A DNA stretch of 64,000 nt from Pseudomonas kribbensis (GTDB taxonomy: Bacteria > Pseudomonadota > Gammaproteobacteria > Pseudomonadales > Pseudomonadaceae), in the NCBI RefSeq assembly GCF_003352185.1, contig NZ_CP029608.1, positions 3,100,001 to 3,164,000 of the forward strand, given 5' to 3'. The position numbers were made by a program, and so were the translations under genes. Shown one piece after another: positions 6,309 through 43,054 of the stretch. Position 1 is the first letter of the stretch. Every line of letters begins with the position of its first letter. The notes under the pieces were generated by a model that ran no database searches, was not told the origin of the DNA, and was given only the letters and a program-made list of their open reading frames with translations.

Positions 6309-7463
6309 TCAGGCCTGGCGCTGGACCAGCGCACGCTCCATCCGCGCAATGCCTTCTTCCAGCAACGAACGCGGGCAACCGAAGTTCAGGCGCACGAATT
6401 GCTGGCTCTGGTCACCGAAATCGATGCCCGGGCTGAGTCCGACGCGAGCCTGTTCGAGGAAGAACTGTTGCGGATTGTCCAGGCCCAGGGCCGAGCAATC
6501 GAGCCACGCCAGATAAGTGCCCTGCGGCACGTTGATCGTTACGCCGGGCAGACGACTGCGAACCGCGTCCACCAGCCAGTCACGATTGGCTTGCAGGTAT
6601 TGCTTGAGTTCTTTCAGCCACGGCCCGGCTTCGCTGTACGCCACGCGGGTGGCTTCCATGCCCAGCGGATTGACGCTGTCTACCATGCCGCAACGGGCGT
6701 GGTTGACGCGCTCGCGCAGGGCGCTGTCCTGGATGATCATGAACGAGGTCTTGAGACCGGCAATGTTGTAGGCCTTGCTCGCCGACATCAGGGTGATGGT
6801 GCGTTGGGCGATTTCCGGGCTCAGGGACGCGGTCGGAATGTGCACGCGACCGTCGTAGCACAGCTCGGCGTGGATTTCGTCGGAGATGATCCAGGCGTCC
6901 TGCGCCATGCAGATGTCGGCCACCGCTTGCAGTTCTTCACGGTCGAAGACCTTGCCGATCGGGTTGTGCGGGTTGCTCAGCAGCAGGGCGCCGCCACCGG
7001 TGAGGGATTCACGCAAGGCGTCCAGCGGCGTGGCGTAGGTGCCGTCGGCCAGGGCGTTGAATTCCAGCTCGACCTTGTTCAGGCCCCAATGGCCCGGTGC
7101 ATGGCGCAGCGGCGGGTAGTTCGGGGTTTGCACCACGACATTCTGTTGCGGTTGCACCAGCGCCTTGAGCGCCATGTTGAAACCCGACTCGACGCCCGGC
7201 AGGAAAATCAGCTCCTGCGGTTTGACCCGCCAGGCGAACTTGTTCCAGAGGTCGGCGACGATGGCCTCGCGCAAATTGTCCTGGGCGACGCTGTAGCCGA
7301 CCAAGGGGTGCAGCAGACGCTGTTGCAGCGCCTCGATGACCACCGGCGGTGCCGCGAAATCCATGTCAGCGACCCACATCGGCAACACATCGGCCGCATA
7401 GCGGCTCCACTTGGTGCTGCCGGTGTCGTGGCGGTCGAATACCTGATCAAAATCGAAAATCAT
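6309..7463 (-). CDS. PatB/MalY-type PLP-dependent C-S lyase / aminotransferase
   Basis: A 384-residue fold-type I PLP enzyme. The N-terminus MIFDFDQVFDRHDTGSTKW followed by LPMWVADMDF is typical of the MalY/PatB group (putative C-S lyase, cystathionine beta-lyase activity). The PLP lysine is in SASKAYNIAGLK; the SNPHNPIG loop and DEIHAEL (Asp pairing with the PLP pyridine nitrogen) are intact, as is the C-terminal VRLNFGCPR carboxylate-binding arginine. Likely reaction: beta-elimination of cysteine S-conjugates or cystathionine. It is transcribed away from the formate dehydrogenase operon. The same frame stays open upstream to 10652, but the ATG at 7463 is the family start and everything beyond is the antisense of fdnG. 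Confidence 0.86.
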   Translation of the reverse strand: MIFDFDQVFDRHDTGSTKWSRYAADVLPMWVADMDFAAPPVVIEALQQRLLHPLVGYSVAQDNLREAIVADLWNKFAWRVKPQELIFLPGVESGFNMALKALVQPQQNVVVQTPNYPPLRHAPGHWGLNKVELEFNALADGTYATPLDALRESLTGGGALLLSNPHNPIGKVFDREELQAVADICMAQDAWIISDEIHAELCYDGRVHIPTASLSPEIAQRTITLMSASKAYNIAGLKTSFMIIQDSALRERVNHARCGMVDSVNPLGMEATRVAYSEAGPWLKELKQYLQANRDWLVDAVRSRLPGVTINVPQGTYLAWLDCSALGLDNPQQFFLEQARVGLSPGIDFGDQSQQFVRLNFGCPRSLLEEGIARMERALVQRQA

Positions 7464-7537
7464 GCGCGGTCTCTGAGGGCGGAGATGGGTCGTGCCGGCG
7501 ATGATAAACCTCCATCCCCTGCGGGCGCGAACTTGTG

Positions 7538-7564
7538 ACCGACGAATGGCCGACGGTCGGTTTT
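7538..7564 (+). terminator. Hairpin with short T-run ahead of fdnG (weak)
   Basis: ACCGAC (7538-7543) and GTCGGT (7556-7561) form a 6-bp stem followed by TTTT. It lies in the 219-base gap between the divergent C-S lyase gene and fdnG. It could be a leader attenuator or a chance structure; the stem is short and the loop is 12 bases. Confidence 0.25.
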
Positions 7565-7682
7565 CACACAGACCACGGCGCCGTTGTCTACAGTGAAAAA
7601 GTCGGCACTCGCTTGCCGCCACCGTGATTGTCCAGAAAAAACCCGGCTCAAGTACCGGGTTCCACCTGATCAGGAGTGCACG

Positions 7683-10600
7683 ATGGATCTCAGCCGTCGT
7701 CAGTTCTTCAAGGTCGCCGGTATCGGCCTTGCAGGCTCTAGCCTGGGCGCGTTGGGCATGGCCCCGACGCTGGCCTTCGCCGAGCAGGTGCGCCACTTCA
7801 AGCTCGCCCACACCCATGAAACCCGCAACACCTGCCCGTATTGCTCGGTCGGTTGCGGTTTGATCATGTACAGCCAGGGCGATGCCGCGAAGAACGTTGC
7901 GCAAAACATCATCCATATCGAGGGCGACGCCGACCACCCGGTCAACCGCGGCACCCTGTGCCCGAAAGGCGCCGGCCTGCTGGACTTCATTCACAGCCCG
8001 GGCCGCTTGCAGTACCCGCAGGTGCGCAAGCCCGGCAGCAGCGAATGGACCCGGATCACCTGGGACGAAGCCCTCGACCGCGTCGCCGACCTGATGAAGG
8101 CCGACCGCGACGCCAATTTCGTCGAGAAGAACGCCCAGGGGCAGACGGTGAACCGCTGGCTGACCACCGGGTTCCTCGCAGCGTCGGCGGCGTCCAACGA
8201 AGCGGGCTACATCACCCACAAGGTGGTGCGCAGTCTCGGCATGCTGGGGTTCGATAACCAGGCGCGTGTCTGACACGGCCCGACGGTGGCAAGTCTTGCC
8301 CCGACGTACGGCCGTGGAGCCATGACCAACACCTGGACCGATATCGCCAACGCGAATCTGATCCTGGTGATGGGCGGCAACTCCGCTGAAGCGCATCCAT
8401 GCGGCTTCAAATGGGTGACCGAAGCCAAGGCGCACAACGCCGCGCGGCTGATTGTGGTCGACCCGAGATTCACCCGGACCGCGTCCGTGGCCGATTACTA
8501 CGCGCCGATCCGTACCGGCAGCGACATCGCGTTCATGGGCGGGCTGATCAATTACCTGCTGACCGAGGACAAAATCCAGCACGAATACGTGCGCAACTAC
8601 ACCGACGTGTCGTTCATCGTCAAAGCCGGATTCGGCTTCGAGGACGGGCTGTTCACCGGTTATGACGCGGCCAAACGCACCTATACCGACAAATCCAGCT
8701 GGGGTTACGAACTGGGCGAGGACGGCTTTGCCAAGGTCGACCCGACCCTGCAGGATCCGCGTTGCGTCTATCAGCTGATGAAGCAGCATTACAGCCGCTA
8801 CAACATCGACCTGGCGAGCCAGATCTGCGGTATGCCGGTCGATGCGATGAAGAAAATCTGGGAGGAAATCGCCACTTGCTCGCAGCCGGGCAAGACCATG
8901 ACCATCCTTTACGCATTGGGCTGGACCCAGCACTCGATCGGCTCGCAGATCATCCGCAGCGCAGCAATGGTGCAACTGTTGCTGGGCAACGTCGGCATGC
9001 CCGGCGGCGGGGTCAACGCCTTGCGCGGACATTCGAACATTCAGGGCCTGACCGACCTCGGGTTGCTGTCGAACTCGTTGCCGGGCTACCTGACCCTGCC
9101 GATGGATGCCGAGCAGGACTACAACGGCTACATCAAGAAACGCACGCAATTGCCGTTGCGGCCGGGGCAACTGTCCTACTGGCAGAACTACAGCAAGTTC
9201 CACGTCAGCCTGATGAAAGCCTGGTACGGCGCCAACGCGACCGCCGAAAACCAGTGGGCCTACGATTACCTGCCGAAACTCGACATCCCCAACTACGACA
9301 TCCTCAAGGTGTTCGACCTGATGGGGCAGGGCAAGGTCAACGGCTACATGTGCCAGGGCTTCAACCCGATTGCCGCGCTGCCGGATAAAAACCGGGTGAT
9401 GGCCGCTCTCGCCAAACTGAAATGGCTGGTGGTGATGGACCCGCTGGCCACCGAAACCTCGCAGTTCTGGGAAAACGTCGGGCCGTACAACGATGTGAAA
9501 AGCGCCGACATCCAGACCGAAGTCATTCGTCTGCCGACCACCTGCTTTGCCGAAGAGGACGGCTCGCTGGTCAACAGCAGTCGCTGGCTGCAATGGCACT
9601 GGAAAGGCGCCGACGGCCCCGGCGAGTCCCGCACCGACGTGCGGATCATGACCGAGCTGTTCATGCGCCTGCGTCAGCGTTATCAGACCGAGGGCGGCGC
9701 TTATCCCGATCCGATTCTCAAACTGTCCTGGCCGTACAAGGTTCCGGAAGAACCGTCGCCGGAAGAAATCGCCAAAGAGGTCAACGGCTACGCCACCACT
9801 GACTTCACCGACGCCACGGGCGCGGCGATCAAGGGCAATTCGCAACTGGCCGCCTTCGCCCAGCTCAAGGATGACGGTAGCACCGCCTCTGGCTGCTGGA
9901 TCTTCTGCGGCAGCTGGACCGAGGCCGGTAATCAAATGGCCCGGCGCGACAATGCCGATCCGTATGGCATGCATCAGCATCAGGGCTGGGCGTGGGCCTG
10001 GCCGGCCAACCGGCGGATTCTCTACAACCGCGCCTCGGCCGACATGCAGGGCAAACCCTGGGACCCGAAAAAACGCCTGGTGTGGTGGAACGGCAAGGCC
10101 TGGGGTGGCACCGACGTGCCGGACTACAAGGCCGATGTGCCGCCGGAAGCCGGGATGAACCCGTTCATCATGAACCCCGAAGGCGTGGCGCGGTTCTTCG
10201 CCGTCGACAAGATGAACGAAGGGCCGTTCCCCGAGCACTACGAGCCGTTCGAAACGCCGATCGGCATCAACCCGCTGCACCCCGAAAACAAGAAAGCCAC
10301 CAGCAACCCGGCGGCGCGGATCTTCGATTCGGTGTGGGACAGCCTCGGCGTGGCCAAGGATTACCCGTACGCCGCCACCAGTTACCGGTTGACCGAGCAT
10401 TTCCACTTCTGGAGCAAACACTGCCGGTTGAACGCGATTGCCCAACCTGAGCAATTCGTGGAAATCGGCGAAGTGCTGGCGAAAGAGAAGGGCATCGCTG
10501 CCGGTGACCGGGTACGGGTCAGTTGCAAGCGCGGGTTCATTGAGGCGGTAGCGGTGGTGACCAAAAGGATCCGGCCGTTGCAGGTCAACGGCCAGGTCGT

Positions 10601-10748
10601 GCATCAGATCGGCATCCCGCTGCACTGGGGGTTCACCGGCCTGACGCGTCACGGCTACCTGACCAACACCCTGGTGCCGTTCCTCGGCGATGGCAATACA
10701 CAGACCCCGGAATCCAAGTCATTCCTGGTCAACGTGGAGAAAATATAG
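7683..10748 (+). CDS. fdnG: Selenocysteine-containing formate dehydrogenase, major (alpha) subunit
   Basis: The catalytic molybdenum subunit, 1021 residues when the in-frame TGA at 8271-8273 is read as selenocysteine 197 (NQARV-Sec-HGPT, the same context as Escherichia coli FdnG/FdoG). The N-terminus SRRQFFKV followed by a hydrophobic stretch and AFA is a twin-arginine signal, so the enzyme is exported folded and faces the periplasm. The first 4Fe-4S site is CPYCSVGC...LCPKGA. It oxidises formate to CO2 and feeds electrons to the beta and gamma subunits and then quinone. ATG 7683 has AGGAG upstream. The next gene starts on the base after the TAG stop. A caller that treats TGA as stop will split it into 7683-8273 and 8286-10748; it is neither a frameshift nor a pseudogene. 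Confidence 0.97.
8284..8303 (+). promoter_or_regulatory. Bacterial SECIS element of fdnG
   Basis: Ten bases after the TGA codon, CGG (8284-8286) pairs with CCG (8301-8303), T8287 is bulged, and GGCA (8288-8291) pairs with TGCC (8297-8300) around the loop AGTCT. A bulged U below a short stem with a GU-containing apical loop is what SelB recognises in the E. coli fdhF/fdnG SECIS. It lies inside the coding sequence and directs Sec insertion at 8271. Confidence 0.88.
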
Positions 10749-11684
10749 ATGGCCAGCCAAGACATCATCGCCCGCTCGGCCACCACCACGCCGGCACCCT
10801 CGGTGCGCAATCAGGAGGAAGTCGCCAAGCTGATCGACACCACCAAATGCATCGGCTGCAAGGCCTGTCAGGTCGCGTGCTCGGAATGGAACGAGCTGCG
10901 CGACGAGGTCGGCCACAACCACGGCACCTACGACAACCCGCAGGATCTGAGCGCGGAGTCGTGGACGCTGATGCGCTTCACCGAGCACGAAACCGACGCT
11001 GGCAACCTCGAATGGCTGATCCGCAAGGACGGTTGCATGCACTGCGCCGAGCCCGGTTGTCTGGCGGCGTGCCCGAGCCCGGGGGCGATCATCAAACACG
11101 CCAACGGCATCGTCGATTTCGATCAGGACCACTGCATCGGTTGCGGTTATTGCATCACCGGTTGCCCGTTCAACATTCCGCGCATTTCGCAGAAGGACCA
11201 CAAGGCCTACAAATGCACCTTGTGTTCGGACCGCGTAGCCGTGGGACTGGAGCCGGCCTGCGTGAAAACCTGCCCGACCGGGGCGATTGTCTTCGGCAGC
11301 AAAGAGGACATGAAGACCCACGCGGCCGAACGCATCGTCGACCTGAAGAGCCGTGGTTTCGACAACGCCGGTCTCTACGATCCTGAAGGCGTCGGCGGCA
11401 CCCACGTCATGTACGTGCTGCATCACGCCGACACGCCGAAGATCTACGCCGGGCTGCCGGAAAATCCGGCCATCAGTCCGCTGGTGGGCCTGTGGAAAGG
11501 CATCAGCAAACCTCTGGGCCTGCTGGCCATGGGGGCGGCGGTGCTGGCCGGGTTCTTCCATTATGTGCGGATCGGCCCGAATCGCACCGAAGAGGATGAC
11601 CATCCGGAGCCGCCCGACACCTCGGTCCACGTGGTCGACCCGGCGGTGCACACCTTCGACCCACGCGGGGAGGACCGGCCATGA
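10749..11684 (+). CDS. fdnH: Formate dehydrogenase iron-sulfur (beta) subunit
   Basis: A 311-residue electron-transfer subunit. Four cysteine clusters are visible: [11 protein letters not shown] (about 34-44), [24 protein letters not shown] and [14 protein letters not shown], matching the four 4Fe-4S centres of FdnH/FdoH. Near the C-terminus [16 protein letters not shown] is the single membrane anchor, followed by an acidic tail. It carries electrons from the Mo/Sec site of the alpha subunit to the cytochrome b subunit. The ATG follows the fdnG stop with no gap, and its own stop overlaps the next start by four bases (ATGA), so the three structural genes are translationally coupled. Confidence 0.96.
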
Positions 11685-16641: not shown

Positions 16642-16737
16642 GGAAGGCAATCGCGCCCGGTGGCGCGGCCGGGCTTCAAACCCGGTTGGGGATGGCATCC
16701 GTTCCCGGGCAGGTTCGACTCCGGCTGCCTTCCGCCA
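16642..16737 (+). tRNA. selC: Selenocysteine tRNA, anticodon TCA (includes encoded CCA)
   Basis: A 96-base tRNA with the Sec-specific shape. An 8-bp acceptor stem is formed by GGAAGGCA (16642-16649) and TGCCTTCC (16726-16733), followed by G73 and an encoded CCA. The anticodon arm CCGGG/CCCGG (16669-16673, 16681-16685) holds the loop CTTCAAA with anticodon TCA at 16676-16678. A long variable arm (TTGGGGATGGCATCCGTTCCC region) and the T loop GGTTCGACTCC follow. It lies six bases after selB, in the same orientation, completing the fdn-sel module. Confidence 0.97.
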
Positions 16738-35771: not shown

Positions 35772-35885
35772 TCAATGGGAGCCGTCACGTTCGCTACCAA
35801 ACGAAGGGTGGCGGCCATGCTCAGGTTGGTAGACCGGGACATAGGAAACCGGCGCGCCCGAAGACGCCCTGTGCATGACCACCAT
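35772..35885 (-). CDS. Possible 37-residue leader peptide upstream of the DUF6124-type gene
   Basis: An open frame ATG 35885 to TGA 35772 on the minus strand codes for MVVMHRASSGAPVSYVPVY..., ending GSERDGSH 18 bases before the ATG of the next gene. It has no convincing Shine-Dalgarno, so it may be a conserved RNA rather than a translated peptide. The placement just before a ribosome-binding site, in the same direction, suits translational coupling or attenuation. I think similar sequences recur upstream of related genes in pseudomonads, but this is memory, not a search. Confidence 0.35.
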   Translation of the reverse strand: MVVMHRASSGAPVSYVPVYQPEHGRHPSFGSERDGSH

Positions 35886-35941
35886 AACGCGGAGTCTTAC
35901 AGACACTGCACATCATGATGCTTATGCAACCTACGATATCC

Positions 35942-36108: not shown

Positions 36109-36465
36109 TCAAAGCCTGGAAGAAATCTCCTTCCAGATGTAGCCGTAGTTGTATTGCAGCCAGCGAACCAACGCCTTATCCAATTGCCTGCGAAACCAGC
36201 TGCTCTCCCTGGCTGCCAGCCTTTGCTCGATCATGATTCTGAGTGAGTCTGGATCGAAGCCAGTCCATACCGAGGGCACAGCGGCCAGAAGGTTGGTGAA
36301 GCACACCGGCGCGACCTCCGAATAAAGGATTTCGTAGAGCACGTCAGAATCGATGCCTCTGACTTCCGCAGCCACATAATCGTATTCGACGGGTAAATCG
36401 TTGAAAGGCCAGGAGAGGGCAGCTCTGATGTTGGTTAGCTGTGGCTCAGTCAGAAGATGTCTCAA
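36109..36465 (-). CDS. DUF7079-like small protein
   Basis: About 118 residues from a TTG at 36465 (AAAGGTG ten bases upstream); a second TTG at 36471 and an in-frame opening up to 36654 are alternatives. I prefer the short form because the extra N-terminal part is low-complexity AT-rich DNA containing a hairpin. The core VEYDYVAAEVRGIDSD, YSEVAPVCFTNLLAAVP and VWTGFDPDSLRIMI resembles DUF7079, small proteins of unknown role. It is the last gene of the AT-rich island, just downstream of the RloC-like gene and in the same direction, so an antitoxin- or immunity-like role toward it is possible but unproven. Confidence 0.5.
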   Translation of the reverse strand: MRHLLTEPQLTNIRAALSWPFNDLPVEYDYVAAEVRGIDSDVLYEILYSEVAPVCFTNLLAAVPSVWTGFDPDSLRIMIEQRLAARESSWFRRQLDKALVRWLQYNYGYIWKEISSRL

Positions 36466-36605
36466 AACCAAAACACCTTTTGTTCGCCTTTCATTGAATG
36501 GAGACAAGGTGAGATAGTGGATTTTTGAAAGAGTACTCTGGTTTTTTTGGGGTGAAAAAAGGGGGGTAGCATAAATTCGACCATTTTGACTCCATAACAA
36601 AGAAT

Positions 36606-36640
36606 GGGGCGGACTTATTATCAGTAAATAAGTCCGCTCC
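36606..36640. terminator. Strong hairpin after the RloC-like gene
   Basis: GCGGACTTATT (36609-36619) and AATAAGTCCGC (36627-36637) form a perfect 11-bp stem with a 7-base loop, extendable by GGG/TCC. TTTT follows on the plus strand (36641-36644). It lies just past the stop of the minus-strand RloC-like gene and separates it from the DUF7079-like gene. Confidence 0.65.
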
Positions 36641-36650
36641 TTTTGGTTGC

Positions 36651-39074
36651 TCAAGAGGTTCGTTCGGGCTCCCCAATGCTTTTTAGAAGGGCGTTGTATT
36701 GGGCGGAGTCAGAATTGTATATCTTGTCTAGGACATAGTTTGCCACTCTGGCTATTTCAGGAATTTCCACTGGCTTGAATCCTCTGTCGGGTATGGCTTC
36801 AAGGTGCGAGAACTCATTGTTTAAACGATTTATAAGCGCTACCGCCGTGTCTTCCTCCTCTCCAAAGAATTTTCTAATCCGCTCAAAGGCATCGTTTTTG
36901 TCGTCGTGATAGGGGTATTTGAAGCACAGAAATGCTTCAAGAAATTTTCTCAGGTTGTTGCCGAAGCCGAAAAAAGGTTCATGATTTAAGTTTGCGGCAT
37001 CTTGGTTTTTGCACTTGTAGATCTGATGGAAGAGGTAGTGAAATTCAGTGATGTAATCTCTTAAGTAGGCTGGCATCAATAAAATGTTGCTGGCTGAGCC
37101 ATTGCGCTCAATTAGAAAGCTCTCGCTATCTTCAACGCTCTTTGTTTTGCCATCTCCTGTGGGAATCTTTTTCTTTGGAATTGAAAGGCGCTTGAGGTAT
37201 TTTAAAAAATCTAAGTTGTGTGTAGAGATGAAAAGTTGGTTGTAGCGATATTTGTTTGATCCGTCATCGTTTTTAAGAGGTTTCGTAATTAAGCTTTCGA
37301 TTAGACTGAACATGAAGAAAATGTGGTTATTGTCCAGGCTTGAAATTGGGTCGTCTATATAGATTATTAACTCTTTTCCTTTGTTTTCAGCCTCGTCTAA
37401 TTTTGCTATGAAATAGCAAAATGCAATTAAGCTGCATTCTCCCTCGCTTAGGTTGTACGCGGAGGTTCCGTTTCTGGTTATTTCGAATTTTACGGTTTTC
37501 TGATCTGATCCATCTTTAGCCTCAAGCTTGATTCCATCATGTCCAAAAAAGTGATTGAGCAAGGAGTTTACTTGTTCGGCGCCTTTGCGCTCATCTTTCT
37601 GCGTGGCTCGTAAGCTTGAGATTTTTGCTACGGCCTCACGAATTTCACTCTCCGCACTTTCATAAATTGTACTTGCTGTATCAAGGCTGGTTTTCAGATT
37701 TTCGATTCTTGCAAGCTCAGACTCATATTTAATTGATTGGAATAATGTGTGAACATCGGTTAGTCGAAGCGCCTCCCTAGCAGAAGCTTTGTCTTTCTCA
37801 AGTGTTTTGGTTTTAGTGTTATTTTGCGAAATTAAAGTATTTATTGCGTTGACGTAACCTTGCACGTCTTCTTCGTTGTAACTAGGAGGCGCTAAGGCGA
37901 CGGTTTGGAAAAGATTATTTTTGCGGCTCTCCAAAGCCTGTTTCAGTGCGTCGACATCCTTTCTGTAGATTGTTAACGCATCAGAAAGAGCCTTGCTATT
38001 TGTGTGGAATGCCGGACGCTCATCTGTATAAAACTGGTCGCTTGTAAATTTATTGAGGTTGGCAACTAAATTGATCTCGCTATTCACAGTAAGGATTGCA
38101 GAATCAAGAGCAGTCTCAAGATCGCCAGACTCTTTGCTGAAGTGGGAATCCAGCGTTTGCCAAAGTTCGTGGGGCAAATTCTGTCGGCAAAAGGCACAAT
38201 CTTCTCGTTTTTGACGATGAAGATTAATACCTTGTTTGACCCAGTTTTGTAGAATGCTGTCGTTAAGTAACTCTTGAATTGGCTTTGTTGGGGTGATTTT
38301 TTTTGATAGAAGTTGTTCGGATGTTTCGCGTAGAGAGTTTAGGTTTAATTTGATGCTTAATGTTTCGTTTATGTCGGGTAGAGCTTCTTGTTTTAGTAGA
38401 TTTAGTTTTGTGGTTTGCTCCTCGGTCGTAAGTGGGGAGAAATCTGGTTTTTTTACAGTGTTAATATCCCTTTTGATGCTGTCGATATTGTAGGTTGAAA
38501 GTCCGTATTCGCGATTTTTTTTGATTTTATTGTTTGCGTGTGACCTTAGCTTTTCCTCCAATGAATCGGAGACGGCCTTGTGGTTGCCTTTGATACGATC
38601 CCTTTCTAGTTTTTTAGCTTCTAGTTCGAAACGGAGGCCGGATTTTCCTTCAGTACTGCCGAGTTTTGTTTCTATGGCTTCTATCGCGTCATCAATTTCT
38701 TTGTTTTTTTCTCCGACAATGGCGAAGGTTTTTATTTCTCCTCCAATTTGGTTGACAAGAAAGCTCAGATTATCAGTTACAAAGTCGCGATTGTAGACTC
38801 TCACGTCATAGTTGTGAGTAAGCAATGATGAGGGTGCGACATTTCCATTGTCACCGCGAATGGTGAAGGATACGTCAGTGTAGCTAGAGGGCGTTTTACG
38901 TAATTCTAAAGCGCGAAACAAACGCGAGAGTGTGGTTTTTCCGGAATAATTACGTCCGTATAAAATATTCAGGCGTTTTAAGTCCTGAACGTTTCTTCCG
39001 CTATCCCGGACGGATTTTTTCCAATCTAAATCGCTAAAGCTTCCAAAGCGTTCTATATCTATCTGATGTATCAC
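36651..39074 (-). CDS. RloC/PrrC-like anticodon nuclease with ABC ATPase and zinc-hook coiled coil
   Basis: An 807-residue AAA_13-type protein. Walker A is YGRNYSGKTT (39-48); the ABC signature YNLSEGE (540-546), Walker B YIDDPISSLD (Asp574-Asp575) and the switch histidine His619 (STHNLDF) lie in the C-terminal half. Between them are long charged coiled-coil segments with a CAFC pair at 293-296, placed like the zinc hook of RloC. Past the ATPase, Arg709-x3-Glu713 (LRKFLEAF) and His757 (NEFSH) match the Arg/Glu/His triad of PrrC and RloC tRNA anticodon nucleases. Length fits RloC (about 800); PrrC is half as long. I chose GTG 39074: GGAGG stands eight bases upstream. Known relatives cleave tRNA after phage infection or DNA damage. 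The gene is AT-rich and has no hsd genes beside it. Confidence 0.72.
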   Translation of the reverse strand: MIHQIDIERFGSFSDLDWKKSVRDSGRNVQDLKRLNILYGRNYSGKTTLSRLFRALELRKTPSSYTDVSFTIRGDNGNVAPSSLLTHNYDVRVYNRDFVTDNLSFLVNQIGGEIKTFAIVGEKNKEIDDAIEAIETKLGSTEGKSGLRFELEAKKLERDRIKGNHKAVSDSLEEKLRSHANNKIKKNREYGLSTYNIDSIKRDINTVKKPDFSPLTTEEQTTKLNLLKQEALPDINETLSIKLNLNSLRETSEQLLSKKITPTKPIQELLNDSILQNWVKQGINLHRQKREDCAFCRQNLPHELWQTLDSHFSKESGDLETALDSAILTVNSEINLVANLNKFTSDQFYTDERPAFHTNSKALSDALTIYRKDVDALKQALESRKNNLFQTVALAPPSYNEEDVQGYVNAINTLISQNNTKTKTLEKDKASAREALRLTDVHTLFQSIKYESELARIENLKTSLDTASTIYESAESEIREAVAKISSLRATQKDERKGAEQVNSLLNHFFGHDGIKLEAKDGSDQKTVKFEITRNGTSAYNLSEGECSLIAFCYFIAKLDEAENKGKELIIYIDDPISSLDNNHIFFMFSLIESLITKPLKNDDGSNKYRYNQLFISTHNLDFLKYLKRLSIPKKKIPTGDGKTKSVEDSESFLIERNGSASNILLMPAYLRDYITEFHYLFHQIYKCKNQDAANLNHEPFFGFGNNLRKFLEAFLCFKYPYHDDKNDAFERIRKFFGEEEDTAVALINRLNNEFSHLEAIPDRGFKPVEIPEIARVANYVLDKIYNSDSAQYNALLKSIGEPERTS

Positions 39075-39154
39075 TAGCCTTTCCTCCCTATTTACTTTTC
39101 TAAGGGTAGTCGAGAAATACAAACTCGACAGTTAAGGAGTGAGAAAAAATTCGC

Positions 39155-39182
39155 AGAAAAAAGGGGACAGAAAAAAGGGGAC
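39155..39182. repeat. Tandem 14-base repeat with GGGGAC core
   Basis: AGAAAAAAGGGGAC occurs twice head to tail (39155-39168 and 39169-39182), followed by TGATTTGTTT. The AAAAGGGGACAGATTT type of sequence is common around REP-associated or IS200-like mobile sequences. It lies 60 bases before the Imm50-type gene; a related inverted copy follows that gene at 39681-39716. Confidence 0.65.
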
Positions 39183-39241
39183 TGATTTGTTTCTCATATC
39201 TATTCTAAAATCCGTCAACGATTTCATTTGAGAGGCAAGCC

Positions 39242-39661
39242 ATGGATGCCGCAGAAGAGCTGATACAGGGAGCAGGGCGTATGATTGGCAACATTGGTTT
39301 CTGGCCATCGTTTCACGATGCGGAAGTCATTTCATTTTCGGTGTCACGGCCACTTCACCATGCCAACTCAGGCACCGTCGCAAAGCTCCGCATTTACTAT
39401 CGTGAACATGAAGTGGTGAGGGCGGGTACAGCGGTCTTTGAATACTGTTTCCGCAAAAGCTTACTGATCGAACTGATATTCGACGGTCTCCAGGACTCGT
39501 CGCTGAAGGACTTCAACCAACAGAACGTACTCGATTCAATTAAATTCAAACGCTTACAGGATTCATCAATCGTTGCAGAACTGCTTTCGATCTGGGGGGT
39601 TGGCGGAGTCATTCGCTGTAACACTGTCGCAATTGGCGAATTTACGAACCTTTTAGATTGA
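39242..39661 (+). CDS. Imm50-type immunity protein (orphan)
   Basis: A 139-residue soluble protein. GFWPSFHDAEVISFSVSR (about 18-35) is the W-P-S-F-H-D-A-E-V core of the Imm50 family, which is usually found next to polymorphic toxins. The rest is beta-rich (KLRIYYREHEVV, VFEYCFRKSLLIELIF). No toxin gene is adjacent: the neighbours on both sides point the other way. It is the only plus-strand gene of the island and is bracketed by GGGACAG repeats, suggesting it travelled as a separate cassette. GAGAG precedes the ATG. Confidence 0.72.
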   Translation: MDAAEELIQGAGRMIGNIGFWPSFHDAEVISFSVSRPLHHANSGTVAKLRIYYREHEVVRAGTAVFEYCFRKSLLIELIFDGLQDSSLKDFNQQNVLDSIKFKRLQDSSIVAELLSIWGVGGVIRCNTVAIGEFTNLLD

Positions 39662-39680
39662 TGATCATGCGTCTAAAAAA

Positions 39681-39716
39681 GGGACAGATTTTTTTTCGGG
39701 AAAATACATCTGTCCC
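39681..39716. repeat. Inverted repeat GGGACAGAT / ATCTGTCCC after the Imm50-type gene
   Basis: GGGACAGAT (39681-39689) and ATCTGTCCC (39708-39716) are perfect 9-bp inverted arms around an AT-rich 18-base centre with eight consecutive T. It could act as a terminator between the two convergent genes, and it shares the GGGACAG core with the repeat left of the Imm50-type gene. Confidence 0.7.
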
Positions 39717-39727
39717 ATACTCTTTCT

Positions 39728-42700
39728 TTAAGGAGCAGTGAAAATTTTCAAATCTACATCCAGTTCATCTGCAGTGCTCAACCAATCCTCTATAAGCTGA
39801 TACGCCTGAATGCTTGCAGGCTGACAGGTGAGTGGATTTTCCATACTTTTAATGTAGTGTTTAGCGGAAAAAGAGTTGCCAGCCAAGATCCAAATCTCTT
39901 TTTTACATCGCATTGATGTTCTGCGCTTGCAGATAAGTTCCCATACATTTTTGGAGAGAGAGTCGTCTGTTGGAGGAGTGTGGTTAATTTTTCCGTTGGC
40001 CAATCTGAATCTCGTGTCCAGTGGATATTCCGCAGTATTAGATGGCCAAGCTTGGTGCCACGTTGAAAAATTTCCTGGCTTGATTTTTTTATTGCTTGAA
40101 ACAAGCATATGGATGTTTTTTATAGCTTGGCTGCCGACCTCGGCTATTGCGCCCGCTGAGGATTTTGGCCTCCGAGCATCCCCGCATTTGACATGTACAA
40201 AACAAAGTTTCTCTGGTGAAGACAAAATGAAATCACCCGGTTCAACCCCCATGTCAGTGCAAAGCACGAGATCACAACCAGGAATGTACTGAGCGAAAGG
40301 CCCTAGTTCTCCGAGTGGGGTCGCTGGGTCTCCGTAGCCTTTTAATTTGTCAATAAGATGAAAAATTGAATCAGGGTCAAAACTATCTTTAGTGGTGCGG
40401 TAATATTTATGATCGTTAACGTGGCCTTTTTCTTTGAGGTTGCTATTTAGCATTTCAACAAGAGGAAATAATGAGTTTCCTGAAAAGCTATCTTGAGCGG
40501 CAATTCCCATCTCATAAGGAAGTGCCAGCTTATAGAACGCTCCACCTAAATAAGTCGTGCCATCTTCATACAATATTTTTAGTCGATCTCCGCGATTTAA
40601 ATACTCAACTATCCACTGCTGATCTTCTTTTTTGTTGGATATGCCGCAAAGTTTTACCTCAAAGCAGGAGGTGTCATCCCGAAACACAAGGGCTAATGCT
40701 ATTGTTTCGCCGTGCGCATCAAAAATTATTCCTTCATCGTAGTCTATGTAGAGAAAATCAGCGTGAATTTCGCCTTGCCCGATCAATGTGGGCCCATCTA
40801 GTTCAGTAAAGTCCAGTAGTACCGAAAGAATATTTGCATCGGGTTTATCAGCTATCGGTTGAGCATAAGATTTAATAAGTCGTCCAGCATTTCCGCCTGC
40901 CTCGATACACTCACTGATCGCGTCGATCCACTGCGAAATATCGTACAGTGTGAAATTGGACTCTTTCTGATCTACGATCCTCCCGGACCTCGCGCCAATA
41001 TAGAAACTACTATCTTTCTTTCCATCCAGTCCAATATTGTCGACTTTTACCATTGTCAGAGCGTATCGAGAGTTGCTCTGACTACTGCGGCTACCGTCAA
41101 GGTCTTGTCCTTTTAATGCCACAGTTTCTGGACGACGGACGGCCTGTCCAATAGCTCGGGCATGAGTTTCTTTTATCTGACGAATCTTTGTTTTAGCTGC
41201 TAATGCCGTAAGCTTGTCAATATGAATGGCATTGCGGAGGCGATATTTTTCTTGATTGTAATAGCGTCCGCCTCCGCTATCAAAAATCGCTACGCCGGAA
41301 TCAATTTCCTTCACGATTATCACATGAAGTTTTGGCTCAAAAAAAAGTTTGTTTGAGAAAAATTTCGAACTGTTGAATTCTACGTAAATCATTACTTTTA
41401 GGTCGAGTACACCTTCATAGCTCTTTACCAGAGCTCCTGCGCCATGTAGTTCCCAATACAACCTATCCATTAATAATGGCAGAGAGAAATCCTCTTCCTT
41501 TTGTACAAAGCATACCGACGCATTAGGGATTTTGAGGTCATCCTCCGGGCTCAGGTAATTTAAGTCGACCCGCTCTTTGAATTTCCCATCAAAATAGCTG
41601 TATTTAGGGAAGCTTTCGAGGAAGGACTCAATCAAGTAAGTCGTGCTTAGTGAGCTTACAAACTCTGAGGCTCCTCCGCTGGCAAGATAATAGTCAAATT
41701 TTAGATAGCCTTCCCACATTCCCTCATTTGCGCCGCGACTGAGGTCCAATACAAGTGGTTGCGCTTCTTCGTAGTTTCGAACTATACGACCGACGGCCTG
41801 TACTAGCTCACGACCACTCCCTAATTCGTAAGTTAAAACTAGCAACTTGGCTTCAGGAATGTCAATGCCTTCATCTAACTTGTGTTGATGTATGATAATT
41901 CTGAGATTTTCTATCTTCAGTGCTGGACCAACCCTCTTGAATTTATTCTGCGCATCATCGATTTCCAATCGCTCATGCACGCTCGCGGTTGTGTATAGCG
42001 GAGACAGTAGTTCGTGAAATTTTTGTATGTCATCAATGTTCTTGCATTTAATAATGCATTTTAACCGATCATTAGTGTCAAGATATTTTTTGATTCTTTC
42101 GAGCAGGCTAGGTTCGTCTGTAATTTGTTCATAGAAGGGCTCTGTGATAACGTCAGCAGCTACAGCATCCTTGAATGTAAATACATAAAAGTGTTCGGTG
42201 CTTACATTTAGTTCGAATAAATCGTTACGGTATGGCGTGGCCGTAATTACTACTTTCATGGCAGAGGACTGACGTATTATTTCTCGCCAAACAGGGGATG
42301 GCTCAGAGTGCCCCTCATCCACGATGATCAAGTCAAAGTCTTTTTGAACTTGGTCAAGGTCATCATCGCCAAGCATTGTCAATTTTTGAAAGCTAGTTAT
42401 GTAAATGCCTTCACCTTGTTCAAAATTAGAATCTCGGTAGGTCTTTTTTAGTTCGAAGTCTGCATCTTTAATCGTGATTCGAAAGAATTTTTTTGATATT
42501 TCTTTAAATAATTGGTCTTTAACAGCTTTTCGGTGACATATCACAAGTATTTTTGAGGCACTGGACAGATGCGATATGAGCGAGATAACCCCAGTCTTTC
42601 CAGCACCTGTCGGCAGATTGATCAGAAAAGCTCTATCTGATTCGTTCTCATCAGCGTACGCGACGAAACTGCGGACTGCCTCCAGTTGGCAACTCCTCAA

Positions 42701-42739
42701 GCGTTCTTTTGCAGAGTCCAAATATTCCAGAATATCCAC
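39728..42739 (-). CDS. SF2 DEAD/DEAH-type helicase with C-terminal PD-(D/E)xK-like nuclease segment
   Basis: A 1003-residue protein. The first 340 residues are a superfamily 2 motor: Walker A LPTGAGKT (42-49), DEGH (141-144), TATPYR (166-171) and the arginine-finger motif QAVGRIVR near 320. A middle part of about 450 residues has no motif I know. Near the C-terminus, GVEPGDFIL (Glu833, Asp836) followed by FVHVKCG (His849, Lys851) has the order and spacing of a PD-(D/E)xK site, as in restriction-type helicase nucleases. The start is GTG with GGAAG upstream. The gene is AT-rich and sits in the island with the RloC-like gene, so anti-phage or anti-plasmid action is the natural guess. It matches no named system that I can identify with certainty. 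Confidence 0.7.
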   Translation of the reverse strand: MDILEYLDSAKERLRSCQLEAVRSFVAYADENESDRAFLINLPTGAGKTGVISLISHLSSASKILVICHRKAVKDQLFKEISKKFFRITIKDADFELKKTYRDSNFEQGEGIYITSFQKLTMLGDDDLDQVQKDFDLIIVDEGHSEPSPVWREIIRQSSAMKVVITATPYRNDLFELNVSTEHFYVFTFKDAVAADVITEPFYEQITDEPSLLERIKKYLDTNDRLKCIIKCKNIDDIQKFHELLSPLYTTASVHERLEIDDAQNKFKRVGPALKIENLRIIIHQHKLDEGIDIPEAKLLVLTYELGSGRELVQAVGRIVRNYEEAQPLVLDLSRGANEGMWEGYLKFDYYLASGGASEFVSSLSTTYLIESFLESFPKYSYFDGKFKERVDLNYLSPEDDLKIPNASVCFVQKEEDFSLPLLMDRLYWELHGAGALVKSYEGVLDLKVMIYVEFNSSKFFSNKLFFEPKLHVIIVKEIDSGVAIFDSGGGRYYNQEKYRLRNAIHIDKLTALAAKTKIRQIKETHARAIGQAVRRPETVALKGQDLDGSRSSQSNSRYALTMVKVDNIGLDGKKDSSFYIGARSGRIVDQKESNFTLYDISQWIDAISECIEAGGNAGRLIKSYAQPIADKPDANILSVLLDFTELDGPTLIGQGEIHADFLYIDYDEGIIFDAHGETIALALVFRDDTSCFEVKLCGISNKKEDQQWIVEYLNRGDRLKILYEDGTTYLGGAFYKLALPYEMGIAAQDSFSGNSLFPLVEMLNSNLKEKGHVNDHKYYRTTKDSFDPDSIFHLIDKLKGYGDPATPLGELGPFAQYIPGCDLVLCTDMGVEPGDFILSSPEKLCFVHVKCGDARRPKSSAGAIAEVGSQAIKNIHMLVSSNKKIKPGNFSTWHQAWPSNTAEYPLDTRFRLANGKINHTPPTDDSLSKNVWELICKRRTSMRCKKEIWILAGNSFSAKHYIKSMENPLTCQPASIQAYQLIEDWLSTADELDVDLKIFTAP

Positions 42740-43054
42740 AACAGTCTTCCATGCGATTAAGGTGTTCTCATGTCAACTTGTTAGACATGCGCCATGGTCA
42801 GCAAGAGTAGCAGAGTGCCATGAATTGGTATTAGCAACCGAATCCATAAGGTGTTCTTGAGCGGGGAGATGCCCCTTCAGTGCGCCAGTGGCTGAAGGGC
42901 GCATCGGGTTCGACAACGATTGCCGCTTAGTCCGCTATTGAACTGCTGCCGACGTTAGATTTTGAGTATGTCGGATTGATGGTAGCCGGTCGCTTTTGGC
43001 CAAAGCCGGACCTTCGCGGATGCAGGTTATGGCCGACTTCAGCAACAACGTATC
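42740..43054. other. Intergenic stretch at the right edge of the AT-rich island
   Basis: No gene is seen in these 315 bases. The left part is the promoter side of the helicase gene. CCCTTCAG (42873-42880) and CTGAAGGG (42892-42899) form an 8-bp inverted repeat. From about 42850 the composition returns to the GC-rich background, so the island border probably lies near 42780-42870. No clear flanking direct repeat or integrase was found. Confidence 0.5.

Follow-up and report, generated by a model that had tools for sequence, protein, structure and literature searches.

Hna of Sinorhizobium meliloti (SMa2245) has been described as a single-gene system in which an N-terminal superfamily 2 (SF2) helicase is followed by a C-terminal PD-(D/E)XK nuclease, the protein having 845 amino acids and an E-C-K motif at K729 (PMC13381803). 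Hachiman, as described in PMC12278908, is composed of two genes, HamA and HamB, which bring together a Ski2-like helicase and a DUF1837 nuclease. Here, we analyzed a gene at 39728..42739 (minus strand) of a 64,000-nucleotide stretch of Pseudomonas kribbensis (NZ_CP029608.1, positions 3,100,001 to 3,164,000; the whole stretch is hereafter the window). From the sequence, it had been proposed to encode a helicase with a probable C-terminal nuclease and to be a candidate undescribed single-protein defence system (the original prediction). Computation supports the presence, in one chain of 1003 amino acids, of an SF2 translocase core, a middle module of the PDC-S71 type and a C-terminal nuclease of the PD-(D/E)xK class. 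We consider it probable, mainly from neighbouring genes and from the other cargo that two relatives carry at this site, that the helicase-nuclease has spread horizontally and acts by itself against phages or plasmids as an ATP-driven, DNA-degrading single protein. PDC-S71 is an uncharacterised candidate in PADLOC-DB 2.0.0 (PDLC05077), and a literature search found no paper naming it. Compared loci are cited by number (L001 and so on).

Domain architecture and relationship to PDC-S71

The open reading frame (ORF) is real and complete, as judged from the frame itself, Pfam, alignment and substitution pattern. It starts with GTG, with GGAAG 6 bases 5' of the start, and lies on the minus strand, which the original prediction had left unstated; the plus-strand frame there is full of stops. 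Pfam confirmed the SF2 helicase. RecA-like domain 1 corresponds to ResIII (residues 13-171, 42227..42703, minus strand; E 4.2e-22), with the Walker A lysine K48 and DEGH at 141-144, and RecA-like domain 2 to Helicase_C (PF00271; residues 213-322, 41774..42103, minus strand; E 4.4e-7), with QAVGRIVR at 314-321. They are followed on the same strand by the middle module (residues 345-754, 40478..41707) and the C-terminal segment (residues 755-1003, 39731..40477), which includes the putative catalytic strip D829-x3-E833-x2-D836-x12-H849-x-K851 (40187..40255). In the family records that were opened, the annotation was DEAD/DEAH box helicase and nothing more.

The middle had been regarded as a region of unknown type. 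This holds insofar as a Pfam scan of residues 345-1003 returned zero matches; from about residue 447, however, the middle belongs together with the nuclease to PDC-S71. Residues 819-1000 matched the PDC-S71 model of PADLOC (E 1.9e-20), which six stand-alone proteins of 588-621 amino acids (L031, L032, L095-L097 and L101) fit almost end to end. Profile-profile comparison (hhalign) of the helicase-nuclease family with five PDC-S71 proteins aligned residues 447-1003 over 498 columns (probability 99.75, E 2.4e-27), so that this region is homologous to most of a PDC-S71 protein, and both share the D-x3-E-x2-D...H-x-K signature and a Q/K/N helix. On the other hand, identity to the window protein is only about 17-19%, and PDC-S71 proteins are stand-alone, of about 590 amino acids and without a helicase; the four that were scanned (L031, L095, L097 and L101) gave no Pfam helicase match. 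On this homology, the window protein consists of a helicase fused to a module of the PDC-S71 type. This goes beyond the original prediction, in that the nuclease, together with most of the middle, falls in a candidate family that is uncharacterised. In L032, the stand-alone PDC-S71 gene adjoins a gene (6749-8041) whose SIR2-like match is weak (22.2 of 24.5 bits).

The probable C-terminal nuclease domain

The motifs GVEPGDFIL and FVHVKCG noted in the original prediction are present, and K48, E833, D836 and K851 had been numbered exactly. In the AlphaFold2 model of residues 755-1003, a helix (792-801) is followed by three strands (824-827, 837-840 and 844-852), a helix (860-880), a further strand (946-958), a helix (974-992) and a last strand (996-1002). 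D836 is placed just ahead of the second strand and K851 within the third, and the model gave tentative matches to solved structures (VIA-align). The predicted fold at 820-880, where a fold other than a nuclease core would have spoken against the proposal, is nuclease-like. The canonical acid two residues before the lysine of (D/E)-x-K is replaced by histidine (H849-x-K851), and E833 or D829 may take the place of this acid. No Pfam model matched the nuclease domain of the family. Profile, conservation and fold together support a nuclease of the PD-(D/E)xK class, as had been suspected, in a form with H-x-K.

Conservation was measured by aligning 10 full-length members, namely the window protein with nine relatives that are 22-80% identical. 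K48, D141, E142, H144, R318, R321 and E770, as well as D829, E833, D836, K851, Q871, K874 and N875, were invariant in all 10. H849 was kept in nine of them (valine in the remaining one), and histidine occurred in all 14 rows of a further alignment (A6). Against five relatives, the proportion of synonymous differences (pS) was 0.73-0.90, at or near saturation, whereas that of nonsynonymous differences (pN) was 0.10-0.25 and alike in the helicase, middle and nuclease parts. Thus, the pattern exceeds chance, and the nuclease end is constrained like the helicase.

A nuclease of the same type, with H-C-K, ends three unnamed ResIII helicases (L037 1239-4181, 981 amino acids; L099 7874-11197, 1108 amino acids; L080 1-3258, 1086 amino acids). 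Its profile matched that of the helicase-nuclease family (probability 95.8, E 6.8e-9); its Pfam scan gave no match, and the stretch linking helicase and nuclease in these proteins showed no match to the middle module. The same nuclease core therefore seems to recur in a third architecture, a point not raised by the original prediction. We tentatively suggest, with somewhat less than even confidence, that the domain is a branch of PD-(D/E)xK nucleases with H-x-K that has gone unrecognised, lacks a Pfam model and serves in three or more defence architectures: with the middle module in a stand-alone protein (PDC-S71), with the module plus an XPB/SauUSI-like motor (the present gene), and fused directly to a different family of ResIII helicases. 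In this view, the middle module would act as a shared sensor or switch, and, if so, identical trigger logic would operate with or without the motor. Additional relatives of the nuclease part, compared over this part alone, were found at L103-L108.

Comparison with described systems

Hna and the window protein share the same overall build: a single protein with an N-terminal SF2 helicase and a C-terminal PD-(D/E)XK domain. For comparison we used the only 845-amino-acid ORF in the pSymA stretch fetched, which agrees with the published length and K729. BLASTP was significant solely at residues 3-145 of the window protein (RecA domain 1, E 2.6e-5). Profile alignment covered residues 12-346, the helicase only (probability 93), while the C-terminal comparison, made with one Hna sequence, reached a probability of 0.1. 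Moreover, Hna has a DinG/XPD-like Helicase_C_2 (PF13307), which the window protein lacks, having PF00271 instead. With full-length homology missing and the helicase of another type, membership in the Hna family was rejected, and the resemblance is one of build. An Hna-type abortive infection, in which the cell is killed by DNA degradation after phage single-strand binding protein is sensed, would agree with this build (PMC13381803), and it would be one outcome of the effector role favoured here, so that their probabilities overlap. Given that Hna belongs to another family, we regard this specific mode of action as unlikely.

A modification-dependent type IV restriction enzyme, which would, like SauUSI, recognise modified bases of phage DNA through its middle module and cleave at these positions by means of the helicase-nuclease, is less probable again. 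Among solved structures, the helicase core that best matched the family profile was 7clg (E 4.6e-16, residues 19-336), which we take to be SauUSI; PADLOC mREase_IV models matched the helicase part, and a single gene without a methylase would fit. However, the 7clg match is confined to the helicase core, and neither a PLD nuclease nor an SRA match, the marks of SauUSI, was found in the chain. PbeA, an HKD nuclease fused to an SF2 helicase with PbeB-D as partners, was set aside as well: its models matched helicase regions, with no PLD match here. A housekeeping DNA-repair helicase-nuclease of the XPB/RadD kind is highly improbable, since these proteins are among the nearest helicase cores but the NCBIfam equivalog scores (XPB, 40.8 of 610 bits; RadD, 38.8 of 720 bits) are far below the cut-offs, and the gene is rare and scattered, lies in low-GC cargo and has copies on plasmids (see below).

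Several other identities were ruled out. Among the four proteins scanned in the island containing the gene, none had DUF1837, and HamB models matched only within residues 34-144, which argues against Hachiman. Type I or III restriction-modification would need a partner methyltransferase, and the other three cargo proteins are AAA_13, DUF7079 and Imm50-like. NCBIfam equivalogs were all far under their cut-offs, the best being an EcoAI-type R subunit (57.6 of 550 bits), and no housekeeping helicase matched over the entire chain. The earlier statement that the protein does not clearly belong to a named system thus holds for the copies of PADLOC 2.0.0 (2023), Pfam and NCBIfam scanned.

Distribution and mobility

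The family is rare and scattered. The search of genome contigs returned five loci with best-segment identity of 64-80%. In the Pseudomonadaceae sample, 7 of 348 genomes matched, its own included and one with the C-terminal part only; in the class-wide sample, its own genome was the single match among 369. The plasmid search gave 29 records, 13 of them covering at least 80%. Among 5,426 complete Escherichia coli genomes, 101 matched the E. coli-type gene; the match spanned 80% or more of the query in 19 and short stretches only in 82, giving 19 members, or up to 101 if all short matches count. Of the two short matches that were opened, L029 proved to be a full-length member with 52% identity to the window protein. 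L030 has the same locus (99.98% identity to L029 across 20 kb), with the gene annotated as two ORFs. At L029, beside dhaR, a 1343-amino-acid protein (7083-11111) in which little but a helix-turn-helix was recognised ends 55 bp upstream of the family member; it is possibly a partner or regulator in that lineage.

Members were found in Pseudomonas, Stenotrophomonas and E. coli and on plasmids of Paraburkholderia, Bradyrhizobium and Mycobacterium. The gene tree was discordant with the hosts: a Stenotrophomonas copy (72%) was closer to the window protein than a P. syringae copy (64%), and identity among Pseudomonas copies fell as low as 39%. The gene appears to move between bacteria. Where flanks were compared, L001 and L033 had only 3270 bp in common at 94% identity, made up of the gene with 184 bp before it and 73 bp after it in L001. 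For L002 and L003, the shared part was only 3162 bp at 85%, with the gene and about 150 bp upstream. These two pairs share little but the gene, which suggests a mobile unit of one gene and agrees with the single-protein character originally proposed. A general rule of this kind is weakened by L015 and L028, an E. coli plasmid copy and a chromosomal one: their common sequence extends about 730 bp upstream and 175 bp downstream of the gene and includes another 281-bp piece. Genome G271 and the P. maioricensis record L003 carry the same 19.5-kb stretch, and copies broken by or adjoining insertion elements were seen at L018, L039 and hit H69.

Genomic context and proposed function

A survey of homologue neighbourhoods covered 21 loci with copies or fragments (the window, L001-L005, L014-L019, L028, L029, L033, L035, L036, L039 and L122-L124), L030, L034 and L038 being excluded as repeats. 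It should be noted that these loci are not independent, because L015, L028 and L122-L124 have near-identical E. coli-type genes. At 8 of the 21, a count made without a matched control, the neighbours included a strong PADLOC match or a gene annotated as defence, restriction-modification or candidate defence: PDC-S06 (window and L005), LmuA/LmuB of Lamassu with PDC-M65B (L001), retron Ec78 (L015), Avs4 (L123), a type I methylase (L033), GajA/GajB of Gabija beside a gene fragment (L019) and a cytosine methylase beside a truncated copy (L039). Five loci had partial or weaker matches (Nhi/AbiO-like at L003 and L036, a methylase at L035, part of an Avs1b-like ATPase at L122 and an AAA_16 ATPase at L028). 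At these levels the remaining eight had no such neighbour; scanned flank proteins gave none at L014 and a weak Avs4-like match only at L029 (E 3e-5), and L002, L004, L016, L017, L018 and L124 lay outside the PADLOC scan.

In the window, the gene lies in a variable cargo segment (36109..43054), delimited by flank comparison. As had been reported, GC content is low, 0.41-0.44 over about 36.5-42.8 kb vs about 0.58-0.66 elsewhere in the window. The right flank was matched in 91 of 119 genomes of the genus sample at E 0.001 or better, many in short stretches. Two of the best matches were opened, and in both, flanks like those at about 35.35-36.11 kb and 43.05-44.46 kb surrounded about 4 kb of other cargo: a UG9-type defence (DRT) reverse transcriptase with PolA in one (L120 9145-12547) and a different ResIII helicase of 601 amino acids in the other (L119 1791-3593).

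The scattered occurrence, the defence-type neighbours at about half of the loci and this alternative cargo were counted in favour of a defence effector, and the frequent closeness to known anti-virus genes suggests that the gene is probably a one-protein virus defence, in line with the original prediction. No phage test of this gene was found. In the proposed mechanism, the helicase would load where DNA has a form that invader replication typically produces, such as ends or junctions of single- and double-stranded DNA; ATP-driven movement would pass through the middle module and release the nuclease, and DNA, of the invader or all, would then be degraded by the D836/K851 site. As there is no methylase among the cargo proteins, recognition by DNA state seems more likely than by host marking, and DNA-state recognition is also the proposal made for Hachiman in PMC12278908. 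If active, the protein would add a new family to the single-gene defences built from helicase and nuclease and give the uncharacterised PDC-S71 a testable function, and comparison of helicase-bearing and helicase-free forms would reveal the share of the motor in target choice.

Other features of the window

Three further genes of the cargo segment were identified, of which the first two named here were not counted in the system. The RloC-like neighbour of the original prediction, an AAA_13 ATPase at 36651..39122 (minus strand), was recovered by Pfam and by PADLOC as PDC-S06 (1022.9 bits). It has a Walker A motif at 56, CAFC at 309 and a C-terminal R725-x3-E...NEFSH; we take the latter two to be RloC/PrrC marks, and the gene is possibly a defence gene of the anticodon-nuclease type. 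A small Imm50-like gene (39242..39661, plus strand; Pfam 27.3 bits vs a cut-off of 27.1) stands tail to tail with the helicase-nuclease gene, and a small DUF7079 gene was recognised by Pfam at 36109..36654 (minus strand). The conserved left flank of the site contains a C4 antisense RNA (RF01695, 80.6 bits) at 35804-35889 (minus strand). Finally, a tRNA-Sec gene was located at 16642-16737 (plus strand) of the window.
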